Shown here one piece after another: positions 40,458 through 45,982 of a stretch of DNA of 64,000 bases (the stretch's first letter is position 1; each line of letters opens with the position of its first letter). Origin of the DNA: Butyrivibrio sp. (GTDB lineage Bacteria; Bacillota; Clostridia; Lachnospirales; Lachnospiraceae); assembly GCF_017433805.1 (NCBI RefSeq), contig NZ_JAFRGN010000036.1:62001-126000 (forward strand), given 5' to 3'. The notes under the pieces were generated by a model that was given only the letters and a program-made list of their open reading frames with translations, had not been told where the DNA came from and did no database searches. The position numbers were made by a program, and so were the translations under genes.

Positions 40458-42938
40458 CTATTTTTCAGCACCTGCTGGCCTTAAATCTCCGTACTCTTTT
40501 TGGAGCTTTCTAAGGATCTTCACAAGGGTTGTTTCTTCATCAAAAAGATATACATAGCCGTGAAGTGACTGGGCTTTCTGCCTAAGAGTCTTGCAGTGGT
40601 TCCAGACAAAAATCGCTGCTTTACCTTTTCCGTTTCTGGCTTCCTGAATAAGGTTTGCTCCTGCACTGTTACCATCAAAAGCAACAACCATGGACGGACG
40701 TCTTTCAAAAATCTCGTAGTTAAAACTCTTATATATTCCCATTCCTTCAGCTTCAGTTGATACTCTGATGATCACACCAGCTTTTTGAAGCTTTTCAATT
40801 TCCTTAGGACTAATCAGTGCCGGAACAACCGCATATATCCTGAAGTTCTTTTTGTTATGTTCTATCAGGTATTTCTCGTACCCTCCAAGCTTATGTCCTA
40901 TTACAAAACATACTTCATCAGGATTAAGGAACTTAAGAAGTTCATCAAGCTGCCTGATTGCTGCATCTGTCATCCTTGTAGCTCTGTTTTCTGTATTAAA
41001 GCTTCCGCCCATGAGAATAATCGGGAAACGGTCCCAGGTTATTTCTGAGATCTGGTCTTTAAGCTCTGCATTAGCATCAAGACGGATTTCTGCTTTCTTA
41101 CTGGTTCTTGAAACCTTAACAGTCTGCATCTTTTCAAGAAGTACATCCTCCATGTCTCTGCCATTTAAAAGCTTGGCAAAGGATGCCTTCTTATCGGAGT
41201 AGGCCTGTCTACTCTTTTCTATACTGGTGCTCTCTGTCTCCTTCATAAGGCGAAGATCATTCTCAGACAGATTAAGGAGTTTTTCCAAAGATAGCTGCTC
41301 ATCCAGGGAAGTAGTACCATAGAGAGCTGCTCCATCAGTTCCCTCTACGCACTTGATTCCATGCTTCAAATACTCTTTAAGCGGATGCTTATCAAGAGAA
41401 TTCAGGTTATTGAGTCTTACATTACTGGTTATCTGGAACTCCAGAACAACGTTATTCTCTTTTAACTCTTTGAGAACTTCTCTTCCCTTCTGTGATTTAA
41501 GCGAATAGGTGTAAAGGCCGTGACCAAGCCTTATTCTAGGCATCGGCTGTCCCTTTGAAAGAGAATCTCTAACACACTGTATTGAATGAGCTATATTGTC
41601 CCTAAGGCTGTCATTTTCGCCAGCATGAACTCTGATAACAAAGGTCGGATCCTTGGCGGCTATCTTGGCAAGCTCTTTAAATACAGGCTTGAGCACGATG
41701 ATATCATTGATCTCTTCTCCTACAAAGTCGCAGCCTGCCACATATGGGTCAAGGGATGTAGCCTTCAAAACCTCAAGGTTCTGTTCCAGATAGTTCTCAG
41801 GAGTAACAGCATCCTTGATGATTGTAAGAGGAATCCTCCGCATAGCTGCAAGAAATCTGATCATAACTCCAGTTTCCCTGTAGATAGCAGGCATTACCTC
41901 ATGAACCTGTCTGAGCATTTCAATAGACTCATACTTTTTAACCAGGGTTGTATCGCTGATTTCAGCGTATTCAACACCCTGTTTCTTATAATTTCTAGCA
42001 ATCCAAAGGAGCTTATCCTGGAAAATAGTGTTATTTGTGTAATCTGGATTTTCCTTATCCTTCAGCATCTGCTTGAGGGTACTCTGTACATCTCTGTCAG
42101 GAATCTGGGATACGTTGTTAAACGGAATCTTCTCCTCACTCTCTTTTCCCTTGGCAAAGACATAGCGATATAGATACACCTTCTCAAGATTGGTAAAGAC
42201 GGCCTGACCATCCCTGATAATTCCAAGTGAGCCACGTATCTTAACAATATTGAGCTCGGCATTATCAAGATTATTAAGGATAAGGTCAGCAAAGTTGATA
42301 AAGGTATTATCGTTGATCTTTCTGTCCAGATATTTGCCCTTAAGGTCGGAAGTCACAAACTGTCTTGCAACCTTTTCTCTCTGGGCATTTACCTTGATCC
42401 ACTGCTCTGGTGTGAGCTCCAGCTCAAGCTTTTTGACATAATATAACGGGTAACGAATCTGATGGTAGATTCCAAGTGCGATCAGCACATCTGCCGGCAG
42501 ATTGCCGTTCATGTGGGTATGCAGATCAGCTCTGAATTTGAGCTCTTTGGGAATATAGGTCTTGAAAAGAGTCTTGGACATATCTAGCTGATAGTCCTTG
42601 GTCTGACTCATAAGTGTCTTGGCAATAGCTGGGACCAGAGCCTTGGTCGTGACTCTTCCGTCAGGATAAATGGTGGCAACCTCCACATCTCCCAGCTTGA
42701 AAAGATATATTTCTTCGCAGTTAGCATTTATATAGCATGGAACCTCGCCCTTTATGATGAACTTGCCGTCCGTATCCTGCGACAGAGGCAGTTTGCAGGT
42801 TCTAGCCAGATTGCTTATAAGATTTCCAGAGTGATGATTAGGAGTTGCCAGGACGTAAAAGAGCTTATCCAGATCCTTGTACAGATTCACAACAATATCT
42901 TTTTCATTATCCAAAAAGAAAAATGTAAAGTATGTCAT
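40458..42938 (-). CDS. Adenosine-deaminase-like protein with C-terminal Rossmann (DprA/SLOG-like) domain
   Basis: An 826-residue cytoplasmic protein, over twice the size of ordinary adenosine deaminases. Residues 1-130 form an unrecognised N-terminal domain. The amidohydrolase barrel (about 135-600) has HTH (H140, H142), HAGE (H438, E441), LGHG (H473) and TSN; the usual Asp-Asp pair reads TDG (D535, G536). A large insertion sits at about 200-320. Residues 638-826 look like a nucleotide-binding Rossmann domain: MGGSFNTENRATR (643-655), then FDGNSAGANLIQEA (754-767) as in DprA/SLOG proteins. GAGAGG precedes the ATG. It is transcribed alone or with rluA. Purine or nucleotide deamination is likely, but the substrate is unknown. 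Confidence 0.8.
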   Translation of the reverse strand: MTYFTFFFLDNEKDIVVNLYKDLDKLFYVLATPNHHSGNLISNLARTCKLPLSQDTDGKFIIKGEVPCYINANCEEIYLFKLGDVEVATIYPDGRVTTKALVPAIAKTLMSQTKDYQLDMSKTLFKTYIPKELKFRADLHTHMNGNLPADVLIALGIYHQIRYPLYYVKKLELELTPEQWIKVNAQREKVARQFVTSDLKGKYLDRKINDNTFINFADLILNNLDNAELNIVKIRGSLGIIRDGQAVFTNLEKVYLYRYVFAKGKESEEKIPFNNVSQIPDRDVQSTLKQMLKDKENPDYTNNTIFQDKLLWIARNYKKQGVEYAEISDTTLVKKYESIEMLRQVHEVMPAIYRETGVMIRFLAAMRRIPLTIIKDAVTPENYLEQNLEVLKATSLDPYVAGCDFVGEEINDIIVLKPVFKELAKIAAKDPTFVIRVHAGENDSLRDNIAHSIQCVRDSLSKGQPMPRIRLGHGLYTYSLKSQKGREVLKELKENNVVLEFQITSNVRLNNLNSLDKHPLKEYLKHGIKCVEGTDGAALYGTTSLDEQLSLEKLLNLSENDLRLMKETESTSIEKSRQAYSDKKASFAKLLNGRDMEDVLLEKMQTVKVSRTSKKAEIRLDANAELKDQISEITWDRFPIILMGGSFNTENRATRMTDAAIRQLDELLKFLNPDEVCFVIGHKLGGYEKYLIEHNKKNFRIYAVVPALISPKEIEKLQKAGVIIRVSTEAEGMGIYKSFNYEIFERRPSMVVAFDGNSAGANLIQEARNGKGKAAIFVWNHCKTLRQKAQSLHGYVYLFDEETTLVKILRKLQKEYGDLRPAGAEK

Positions 42939-42992
42939 CAGTATTCCTCTCTGTAATCATTTGTGACTGTTGCAATATACTCATATAGCATA

Positions 42993-44021
42993 TCAATTAT
43001 CATCAAGTAATCTTCTCATATCTTGTGGTAAATCAGCTTTGATTTTAATCCTCTCACCTGATATAGGCTGATCCAGCTCAATGTAACCAGCGTGCAGAGC
43101 AGCTCTCGTCATCTCGTGGTTATCAGGTATCTCTTTGCCGTAGAAATTATCCCCAAGAAGCGGATGTCCAAGATGCGCCATGTGAACACGAATCTGGTGG
43201 GTTCTTCCTGTATCCAGCTGAAGTCTCACAAGTGCATAATCTTCAAACTGTTTCTCCACCTTGTAGTGAGTTATTGCTTCTTTTCCATCAGGATGAACCT
43301 CTCTTATCATGCGCTCATCAGGCCTTCTGCGTATAGGTGCATTAACTGTCCCCTGCGGCTGTTCAAACACGCCACTGCAAATAGCCAGGTATTCCTTGCG
43401 CCTTGACATGTTCTCTTTTTGCCCTGCTAAAAGAGCTGCTGCATGCCTGTTTTTGGCAAAGATGACAAGACCGGAAGTCTCACGGTCAAGTCTTCCAACA
43501 GTTCTAATAACATGGTTCTGACCTGATTTAATGTAATAGCCGGCAAGGTAGTTACTAAGTGAATCCTTGTAATGAGCATAGGATGGGTGCACCACCATAT
43601 CTCCAGGCTTGTTGATGATTATTAGATCCTCATCCTCATACACTATATCAAGAGGTCCATCGGCTGGAACAATATCTCCTGCGTTATCATTGTCTTCATA
43701 GACTCTGACAATCAGCTCATCGTCAGGATTCAGCTTATCTATGAGCCTAATTGGAGCCATTTTTTCTTTTAACAACGAGTGTTCCTCAACACCATTACAA
43801 TCCAATTGTTCTAAATTATGGCGAATGCACATCACTCCGTCATCAAACTGCTTGCATCTTGATATCTCGCGGCTTGAAAGCTTCATGATCTCACGCATTA
43901 TATCGCCTGCCATTACAGCATCATCATTATCTGTCTTCTTTTTATCTGTGCTGACACTTGTAATTCTGTCCTTATCAGTCACCTTGTACGTATATCGTAG
44001 TTCTCTATAACCAGATTCCAT
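42993..44021 (-). CDS. RluA family pseudouridine synthase
   Basis: A 342-residue enzyme. The catalytic Asp is in GRLDRETSGLVIFA. Before it lies VYEDEDLIIINKPGDMVVHPS, and after it LDTGRTHQIRVHMAHLGHPLLGDNFYG, all signatures of RluA/C/D. An N-terminal region of about 110 residues could be a degenerate S4-like domain. It isomerises uridines in rRNA or tRNA; the site cannot be told. The ribosome binding site is weak. It lies 54 bp upstream of the deaminase-like gene. Confidence 0.93.
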   Translation of the reverse strand: MESGYRELRYTYKVTDKDRITSVSTDKKKTDNDDAVMAGDIMREIMKLSSREISRCKQFDDGVMCIRHNLEQLDCNGVEEHSLLKEKMAPIRLIDKLNPDDELIVRVYEDNDNAGDIVPADGPLDIVYEDEDLIIINKPGDMVVHPSYAHYKDSLSNYLAGYYIKSGQNHVIRTVGRLDRETSGLVIFAKNRHAAALLAGQKENMSRRKEYLAICSGVFEQPQGTVNAPIRRRPDERMIREVHPDGKEAITHYKVEKQFEDYALVRLQLDTGRTHQIRVHMAHLGHPLLGDNFYGKEIPDNHEMTRAALHAGYIELDQPISGERIKIKADLPQDMRRLLDDN

Positions 44022-44062: not shown

Positions 44063-45844
44063 CTACATTTTGGTCTTTGCTCTGTCAATCGTAATTGTCA
44101 AAACATTAAGTCCCAGCAGATTCTGGTAATTAGTCTCATCCGCCAGTTTCATAACCATCTTTATTCCAATATTCTTTGTAGTATCTTCAGGTCTAAGCTG
44201 TTCTTTCATGCTAACCGGGTCAAATGGAATACAGTCATCTTTAATTCTCAAAAGAATACAATCGTCCTTGCTGACAACTCTTGTCTCTAGATAATGCTTT
44301 TTATTATCACTGGTAAAGCCATATTCTATGACGTTTCTGGCCATTTCCTCAAGACAAAGTGCTGCATACAAAGATACTTTATTATCATATCCCTGTTTCT
44401 TGCAAAAACCTTGAACAAGCTCTGCTGTGTTTGTTACATCTTCCATATTCGTAATACTAACAGCAAGCCTGTCTTCGTCTTTTACTCCAAAGCCATCATC
44501 AAATAATAGCCATTCGTTGACATTACGTGGTATACGACGCCAGTGGATAATAGCATAAACAGGATATACAAACGCTGATATTACTATTCCTATCGGTGTT
44601 GCCAGCCATACACCTAATATACCAATTATAGGTGCAAGTATTAGTGCTGGAAGTACAACACTCGCAAATCCATCTATTACAGAAAATGCATTTACGCAGG
44701 TGTTTTTTCCCATAGCCTGCAGATAGTTAGTCTCCACTTGAACAACCTGAATAAGCGGAATCGACGCAGCATAGATGATAAAGTACTGATGCGCTAATTT
44801 GAATACATTAGACGTAGGGTCTGCAAAGAATATCCTGACTACAGCCCCAGAAAGAAGCATTACAACAACTGCAATAATACATGACAATATCAGAACCTTC
44901 GTAAGTCCAAGCTTAATCAGCTCTTTTATCGAATCCCTATCTTCCTCGCCCACATGAACGCTTCCCAGGGTTCGAACTACTGTACCTGTTCCTAGGCACA
45001 ATGCAATGAACAGTCCCCCAACCATGCCTAGAGCTGATTTAGCCGACATACCATCCTGTCCTGCTACATTAAGAATTATTCTATTTAAAACAACATCCCT
45101 AAACGAAAGGCAAAGTACAAGTAAAGCTCCCGGAAAGCCTATTTTTAGCATATTCCAGGCATCGCCCCAAAGTGCACTTCTAAAACTATATTTAAGCTGT
45201 GATTTTTTACCAAAATAATAGGTCACAAGAATAATAAAATATATCCAGTTGCATATAGAGGTAGAAAGCGCAAGTCCAAATATCCCCATATTAAACACAG
45301 CAACTAATGCTATATTCAAGGTAATATTGCAGATGATCATTGTAGCTATTCCAATGTAATTTCTTTTGCTCTGCCTCTCTAATTGTAGGAATGCCGCCAA
45401 TTGCTGCGACATCATCATTGGGAAAACACCTATTCCATAACCTGATATATATGTGATAAGACTAGCTTTAAGTGTCTCATCTGCGCCGCAAAACGCAGCC
45501 ACTGCTCCAGGGAAGACTAAAAGAATTGATGAAACTAAGATACTGATAATTGCTGTAAGATTAACAGTTAACGAGAATATCCCTGATGTCTTGTCGATAT
45601 TTCCGCTTCCTATATATCTTCCACTCAAAACAGAGCTTCCACCCAAAAGGACAGAACCTGCAGCATTAAGTCCCAGCACAATTGCATAGAACAGACCTAT
45701 TACTCCTACAGAAACAGCATCAATAAACCGTCCAGCTATAATACCGTCTACAATCGAATTAATAGAGCCCATTGCAACTACCATAATCTGAACTGGAAGA
45801 AGCTTAAAAAACAAAACACTACTCATCGAAGTTTTATTTTTCAT
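44063..45844 (-). CDS. MATE-family transporter fused to a C-terminal RsbW-like HATPase domain
   Basis: About 593 residues. The ATG at 45844 is 10 nt from GGAG; an in-frame ATG at 45853 is too close to it. Residues 1-445 have 12 hydrophobic segments and MATE features (GSINSIVDGIIAGRF, a duplicated half near the middle), normally cation-coupled export of drugs or metabolites. Residues 460-593 form a soluble HATPase_c domain of the anti-sigma kinase type: N box LEEMARNVIEYGF, G1-like IKDDCIPFDP and G2-like NIGIKMVMKLAD. There is no frameshift or gap between the parts, so it is a real fusion. What the kinase-like domain acts on is unknown. Confidence 0.88.
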   Translation of the reverse strand: MKNKTSMSSVLFFKLLPVQIMVVAMGSINSIVDGIIAGRFIDAVSVGVIGLFYAIVLGLNAAGSVLLGGSSVLSGRYIGSGNIDKTSGIFSLTVNLTAIISILVSSILLVFPGAVAAFCGADETLKASLITYISGYGIGVFPMMMSQQLAAFLQLERQSKRNYIGIATMIICNITLNIALVAVFNMGIFGLALSTSICNWIYFIILVTYYFGKKSQLKYSFRSALWGDAWNMLKIGFPGALLVLCLSFRDVVLNRIILNVAGQDGMSAKSALGMVGGLFIALCLGTGTVVRTLGSVHVGEEDRDSIKELIKLGLTKVLILSCIIAVVVMLLSGAVVRIFFADPTSNVFKLAHQYFIIYAASIPLIQVVQVETNYLQAMGKNTCVNAFSVIDGFASVVLPALILAPIIGILGVWLATPIGIVISAFVYPVYAIIHWRRIPRNVNEWLLFDDGFGVKDEDRLAVSITNMEDVTNTAELVQGFCKKQGYDNKVSLYAALCLEEMARNVIEYGFTSDNKKHYLETRVVSKDDCILLRIKDDCIPFDPVSMKEQLRPEDTTKNIGIKMVMKLADETNYQNLLGLNVLTITIDRAKTKM

Positions 45845-45982
45845 ATCATTCATTCTCCATTTTTCGCGTATACTATATCACTTTAATGATAACATAGAGC
45901 CCAGGCGACAATAATTAAGCTTTTGTGAAAAAAGAATTACACATTATTTCGCAAGAACAAGGAAAAACCTAGCAAGTAGTGA

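Follow-up and report, generated by a model that had tools for sequence, protein, structure and literature searches.

Is the very large adenosine deaminase (ADA)-like protein encoded in this stretch of Butyrivibrio sp. DNA an ordinary salvage enzyme, a phage-defense protein or an enzyme of another kind? The gene lies on the minus strand at positions 40458..42938 (stop codon included) of the window, by which we mean the whole stretch of 64,000 nucleotides (nt), and is listed there as an open reading frame (ORF) of 826 amino acids (aa) with an ATG start. We favor, at a probability of about 0.45, a purine-nucleotide deaminase that acts alone, is gated by a ligand and plays its part in physiology rather than in defense. 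Such a protein would be an ADA-fold deaminase, metal-dependent and by homology using zinc, that acts on a 5′-phosphorylated purine nucleotide (AMP, ATP or dATP) and not on adenosine. A nucleotide-type ligand bound to its SLOG-like C-terminal domain would set the deaminase activity, and the single chromosomal protein would serve the purine-nucleotide economy or stress response of the cell itself instead of forming a phage-defense module. From sequence comparison we infer the activity, the phosphorylated substrate, the fold of the C-terminal domain, its sensor role and the physiological role.

Orthologues of the ORF retain the same length and motif order. The conservation of residues was judged from an alignment of 103 distinct rows, comprising the window protein and, from the fetched loci, 102 sequences that are each 700 aa or longer. 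Full-length rows are 54% to 90% identical to the window protein, with mean identities (102 rows) of 67% in the N-terminal domain, 77% in the ADA part, 53% in the linker and 67% in the C-terminal domain. Because the orthologues keep length and motif order and six catalytic residues are identical in 103/103 rows, the 826-aa ORF is not a chance ORF and represents a real family. A purine-rich AGAGAGG resembling a ribosome binding site lies ahead of the ATG at 42946..42952 (minus strand, as for all features of this gene below).

The ADA-like catalytic barrel covers residues 135-590 (41169..42536), its end being approximate. A first-pass annotation made from the sequence had recognized ADA motifs in ADA order within the 826 residues, and Pfam confirmed this with a match of A_deaminase (PF00962) to residues 314-565 (E 2.5e-16; 60.1 bits, cut-off 27). 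The motifs are the metal-binding HTH (residues 140-142; 42513..42521), HAGE with a metal His and the catalytic Glu (438-441; 41616..41627), LGHG with the catalytic His473 (471-474; 41517..41528), TSN (504-506) and GTDG (533-536), in which TDG (534-536; 41331..41339) contains the last metal ligand, Asp535. The metal and catalytic set of PF00962, HxH, HxxE, H and D, is present as H140, H142, H438, E441, H473 and D535. Since these six residues are identical in all 103 rows, the protein is likely an active metal-dependent deaminase.

With E up to 0.1, the profile of the ADA region matched 11 sequences in the PDB, each of which carries the name adenosine deaminase or ADA-like. The best E-value was 1.7e-10; in the best alignment HTHMNGN falls on HRHLDGN and TDG on TDD. 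Neither RdrB nor Cad1 was named among the 11 PDB matches (full profile, E up to 10), in a copy of the PDB that may not include such entries. Canonical adenosine deaminases (PF00962; PDB 6n9m, 6ii7, 2pgf) share the order of the barrel motifs and the metal and catalytic residues. They differ in that the solved single-domain enzymes have 326-376 aa, whereas here there are two extra domains, ~100 extra residues in the barrel, and N144 and G536 at the two substrate Asp positions.

These two positions bear most directly on the substrate. Where mouse ADA has Asp19, facing the substrate sugar, the protein has Asn144 (42507..42509; alignment with 6n9m). This residue is Asn in 102/103 rows and Ser in one, i.e., the Asp that binds the ribose hydroxyls is lost in 103/103. 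At the position of mouse Asp296, all 103 rows have the equivalent of G536. According to excerpts of PMC12669630 (the other papers below are likewise cited from excerpts), mouse Asp19 contacts the 5′- and 3′-hydroxyls of adenosine, and TaqCad1, which deaminates ATP and not adenosine, differs from canonical ADA by Gly264 at the Asp19 position and Asn549 at the Asp296 position. The pattern suggests a substrate lacking a free 5′-hydroxyl, e.g., AMP, ATP or dATP.

As a check on how well these positions discriminate, we searched PF00962 proteins of related genomes and obtained 18 proteins from 20 loci. The first Asp is kept in 7/7 ordinary ADAs (L203-L209). It is lost, with the second Asp kept, in a smaller ADA-like group from 11 loci of the genus (L162, L210-L219) that carries HNHxx; the present family is thus not alone in these genomes in lacking the first Asp. 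By this comparison, absence of the first Asp does inform on sugar recognition, and the second position is less informative.

The smaller group itself, found in the window genome and relatives, consists of proteins of ~320 aa with HNHFV (HNHST in L219), HVGE, and QHG or HHG replacing GHG. Another large ADA-like protein was encountered as ORFs of 528 and 531 aa (L232, L233) with the motifs NLHIHTSS, HDGES, GHG and CNDDP; by eye it is ADGF/ADA2-like, and it lies near pyridoxal-kinase-like and transporter-like ORFs.

The putative sensor is a C-terminal Rossmann-like domain at residues 636-810 (40509..41033), described in the first-pass annotation as DprA/SLOG-type. We compared it by hhalign with 108 family profiles that had been made from the fetched loci and that included DprA and LOG. 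The DprA assignment fell away in this comparison: the domain scored 16.9 with DprA (rank 29/108) and 14.3 with LOG (rank 64/108), against 44.3 for the DprA-LOG control. The broader SLOG assignment may stand in a divergent form. With YAcAr/DUF2493 (YspA, cpYpsA-related SLOG, PF10686; 17 sequences, of which 3 came from genomes, 2 from viral contigs and 12 from phages), a comparator picked after the motif had been seen, the domain gave a weak score of 24.5 that extended end to end over 101 columns. None of the 108 comparison families reached 101 aligned columns. The score was reached by 0/300 column shuffles and 1/300 block shuffles, and by none when score and length were taken jointly. In the alignment, the YAcAr segment RNxxM....vaFwDGxSxGT is in register with FNYEIFERRPSMVVAFDGNSAG. 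The domain differs from YAcAr proteins in that these are free-standing and not fused to an ADA, in its strongly diverged first glycine motif, and in the lack of any Pfam match in the 15 members scanned. A divergent SLOG domain of the YAcAr/DUF2493 branch is possible and, in our judgment, probable.

Two motifs stand out in this domain. GGSFN (residues 644-648; 40995..41009) forms the first strand-loop, with G644, S646 and N648 in 103/103 rows and G645 in 102/103. DGNSAG (residues 755-760; 40659..40676) aligns to the YAcAr DGxSxGT; D755, G756 and N757 are present in 103/103 rows, and at residue 760 there are 34 rows with G and 69 with A. The polar residues S646, N648, R725, K737, S738, E742, R747, D755, N757 and E766 are invariant and therefore suggest a ligand site or pocket. 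GGSFN also resembles the beginning of the nucleotidyltransferase motif GGSFNPxHxGH, a reading that we abandoned since the HxGH part is not conserved. No Pfam family matched the C-terminal 220 residues in 15 members scanned (best E 0.024), and the domain profile had no match in the PDB at E up to 10. Across 249 genomes of the phylum the domain was hit in four. Two belong to the window genus and carry it as part of the ADA-like protein; the two hits outside the order (E ~0.003) look by eye like chance, one being a dehydrogenase-like protein and the other a frame of 60 aa.

The first-pass annotation had also proposed a new N-terminal domain of about 130 residues and a long insertion, and both were borne out. 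Residues 1-134 (42537..42938) matched no Pfam family in the 15 members (best E 0.059) and no solved structure at better than E 0.053. Among 116 genomes of the order, this domain was found in nine, each time within ORFs of 722-869 aa of the same ADA-like family. Residue 314 aligns with position 78 of the Pfam profile, which implies ~100 extra residues within the barrel. They belong to an extended region between barrel strands 1 and 2 (residues ~160-310; 42009..42461, boundaries approximate), which includes a well conserved segment near DGQAVFTNLEKVYLYRYVF.

The architecture is genuine, conserved and apparently uncharacterized within the ADA superfamily; its novelty is that of a variant and not of a category, and by the tests made it is neither RdrB nor Cad1, nor is it DprA-like. 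With ThsA, the SIR2-SLOG protein of Thoeris, it shares the design idea of an enzyme and a SLOG sensor in a single chain (PMC11204291, PMC12948488), whereas the enzyme is another one and no Thoeris partner lies among the window neighbors. In its excerpted text, the review PMC12948488 applies SLOG to ThsA only. In the open-licence literature in PMC, no title or beginning of an abstract described an ADA-SLOG fusion. Earlier comparative-genomic work on nucleotide-centered conflict systems may mention such fusions.

To which role the protein belongs is suggested mainly by its distribution. In a sample of 145 genomes around the window genome, 71 matched at E 0.001. We dropped 12 of them, which match only weakly and over a short part of the ADA region (E 1.2e-8 to 9.9e-4); two belong to the genus (G059, G065), and the rest are 10 of the 11 from elsewhere. 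This left one genome from outside (G117) and 58/79 genomes of the window genus as carriers. Three of these 58 have only pieces at contig ends (G032, G060, G077) and two have an in-frame stop (G044, G021). Restricted to high-quality genomes of the genus (≥90% complete, ≤5% contaminated), the gene is present in 39/47. In the order, 39/392 genomes matched at 1e-12, spread over two families, which does not fit an ordinary purine-salvage enzyme running through all Lachnospiraceae, a possibility that the annotation had raised against its own proposal. In the phylum, 2/398 matched at 1e-20, the window's own genome and one congener. The named carriers among the best 80 of 521 GTDB species-genome relatives are Butyrivibrio, Pseudobutyrivibrio, Lachnospira, Bilifractor, Acetitomaculum and Clostridium vitabionis, with many further, mostly rumen Lachnospiraceae among the same 80.

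Across 12 genomes of the genus the protein showed a mean pairwise identity of 77% against 53% for DprA, the sole comparator. A mirror-tree comparison with DprA in these 12 genomes gave a Pearson coefficient of 0.45 (Mantel p 0.0024), yet a Spearman coefficient of 0.07. The plasmid and phage collections held no match at 1e-5, and neither the full profile nor the two end domains had a confirmed match among IMG/VR viral contigs in scans seeded by short patterns.

The gene has no conserved partner. No neighbor family was constant across 46 regions, in 45 of which the gene was recognized, and in 87 loci no neighbor family occurred within three ORFs in more than eight. By eye, the recurrent neighbors in these 87 loci are housekeeping, transport or regulatory genes, and no defense or CRISPR gene was noticed among them in this inspection, which was by eye only. 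Because of the prevalence, the constraint, the ordinary neighborhoods and the absence of matches in mobile and viral collections, we judge a physiological role more likely than a defensive one, with moderate confidence.

Several findings weigh against this interpretation. Asn is found at position 296 in 6/7 of the ordinary ADAs L203-L209 as well, which leaves the first Asp position as the only one that discriminates between the proteins compared, and replacing this Asp by Asn is a mild change. True SLOG pairs score higher than the 24.5 obtained here (37.8 for LOG-YAcAr, 44.3 for LOG-DprA and 75.4 for DprA-YAcAr); two of the 108 comparison families outscore YAcAr, with 28.1 and 27.1 over 37-38 columns; and YAcAr was chosen only once the motif had been recognized by eye. 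DprA, on which the comparison of conservation depends, may evolve fast itself. The gene is dispensable, because 8/47 high-quality genomes of the genus are without it. Finally, a quick, midpoint-rooted maximum-likelihood tree of 59 rows suggests transfers between genera, since rows of g68 and g9, together with named Lachnospira rows, nest inside the window genus g1 (SH-aLRT 98-100) and the f8 genome G117 sits among f1 rows (SH-aLRT 92), a placement that a mis-binned contig would equally produce. The seven other f8 rows form a separate clade.

Such transfers and the changing neighborhoods would fit a single-gene anti-phage system, in which the SLOG-like domain senses a nucleotide derived from infection and unleashes deamination of ATP or dATP, as in CARF-gated Cad1 or RdrA-gated RADAR. 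We consider this unlikely. Likeness to Cad1/CAAD, the CRISPR-associated CARF-ADA that converts ATP to ITP, is evident in that both substrate positions are altered, as in TaqCad1 (PMC12669630), and an ADA is fused to a Rossmann-type domain. CARF_ADA was also the only PADLOC family to match; it hit the window protein with E 7.4e-08 and was found in 12/15 members scanned. However, this match spans profile positions 333-558 of 605, the ADA part only. The CARF of Cad1 is N-terminal, whereas here there is no CARF match and the sensor-like domain is C-terminal and SLOG-like; TaqCad1 has G and N at the two substrate positions, in contrast to N and G here; and no Cad1-type type III CRISPR locus lies among the ten window neighbors.

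RdrB of RADAR (NF041744), by its published description, has a similar length, an N-terminal extension before HxH, an insertion in the core and an extension after the last motif, which the layout of the window protein recalls (PMC9994260). In contrast, the C-terminus is SLOG-like here and no RdrA-like AAA+ ATPase was found among the ten window neighbors, in agreement with the initial view that this is not a canonical RADAR locus. In the window genome nothing matched the RdrB model (cut-off 800 bits) at E 0.01, with 14 control genomes likewise silent. A search at 1e-30 through 348 genomes of the phylum gave no RdrB and no control match either, so that it is uninformative. The prevalence of 39/47 contrasts with the figures for Butyrivibrio in a published survey of defense systems in the rumen, where 24 defense families each occur in <20% of genomes, restriction-modification (RM) and Abi being found at 37-97% across four genera (PMC11834463). 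Likewise, RdrBs of distinct systems have 24-28% identity in their conserved part (PMC9994260), unlike the present gene, which is more conserved than DprA in the 12 genomes. Together with the lack of defense genes by eye among the recurrent neighbors and of phage, plasmid or viral-contig matches, this leaves the initial phage-defense lead weak.

An ordinary salvage deaminase for adenosine, deoxyadenosine or adenine, with structural extensions for oligomerization, appears improbable as well. In its favor, the 11 solved sequences that the profile matched are adenosine deaminases or ADA-like, and in several relatives (e.g., G004, G008, G012, G020, G035) the protein is the only PF00962 protein found. 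Other relatives, however, have additional, smaller PF00962 proteins, and the sugar-binding Asp is lost in every row. In searches with the whole protein, the NCBIfam adenosine deaminase equivalogs (TIGR01430, PRK09358; 10 models listed) gave at best 56.8 bits, below the cut-off of 216.55, and the two extra domains are preserved at 67% mean identity to the window protein. The best PHROG match, also with the whole protein, was to a family of unknown function (E 0.0014, in 1/15 members).

A bifunctional enzyme is highly improbable; in it, the ADA part would convert AMP to IMP, from which the SLOG-like part would then release base and ribose-5-phosphate in the manner of the LOG/PpnN nucleosidases: LOG-type SLOG enzymes do cleave nucleoside monophosphates, and the invariant charged residues of the C-terminal domain exceed the needs of a passive scaffold, but the LOG signature PGGxGTxxE, which is visible in the LOG rows of the profile comparison, is absent from the window protein, and that comparison gave nothing for LOG.

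The ligand-gated nucleotide deaminase remains our preferred reading. Taken further, the protein could represent a new class, a stand-alone, ligand-gated AMP, ATP or dATP deaminase that joins an ADA barrel in one chain to a SLOG sensor and to an N-terminal domain peculiar to this family, and which would act as a nearly core regulator of adenine-nucleotide levels in rumen and gut Lachnospirales. It would then do in physiology what RdrB and Cad1 do in defense, and deaminases such as these may have been recruited from enzymes of its kind; this extended proposal is doubtful. In the excerpts of the literature seen, ADA-fold deaminases of ATP or dATP come from phage defense, namely RADAR and Cad1 (PMC9994260, PMC11645235). 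If the preferred reading is true, switchable nucleotide deamination also serves ordinary physiology, in common rumen bacteria. As it concerns a single gene in named isolates, the question is open to direct enzymology and knock-out.

The surroundings of the gene in the window were described early on as housekeeping (dinB, rluA), and Pfam agreed. Downstream follows a convergent dinB-like gene (IMS). Upstream, at a distance of 54 nt and on the same strand, lies an rluA-like pseudouridine synthase gene (42993..44021, minus strand; PF00849), which is not a conserved partner according to the neighbor tables. The gene, previously taken to be encoded alone, may be co-transcribed with it; what holds of that description is the lack of a conserved partner. 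Besides IMS and the pseudouridine synthase, the ten neighbors identified by Pfam include pyrB-like and pyrI-like genes, a CAP protein, a sortase, a CAAX protease, a GH10 protein, a pyruvate-kinase barrel and a MATE protein that ends in a kinase-like ATPase. No known defense protein, AAA+ ATPase, CRISPR gene or Thoeris partner was found among these ten.

In 71/85 loci an upstream ORF of at least 90 aa lies on the same strand, with a median gap of 27 nt. Its identity varies between rluA-like, YfbR-like nucleotidase, NUDIX, Crp/Fnr-like and YbaK-like (by eye except rluA). The gene is placed shortly behind these changing same-strand genes, as if it were a one-gene cassette moving to the ends of transcription units. 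NUDIX hydrolases (three clusters) and a YfbR-like nucleotidase were seen just upstream in L106, L111, L121, L143, L125, L129, L093, L097 and others; we did not use them as functional neighbors, as they come from few clades with too few independent cases. Further upstream in the window, the gene at 44063-45853 (minus strand) combines a MATE-type transporter with a C-terminal histidine-kinase-like ATPase (MatE + HATPase_c_2), a combination that looks unusual.

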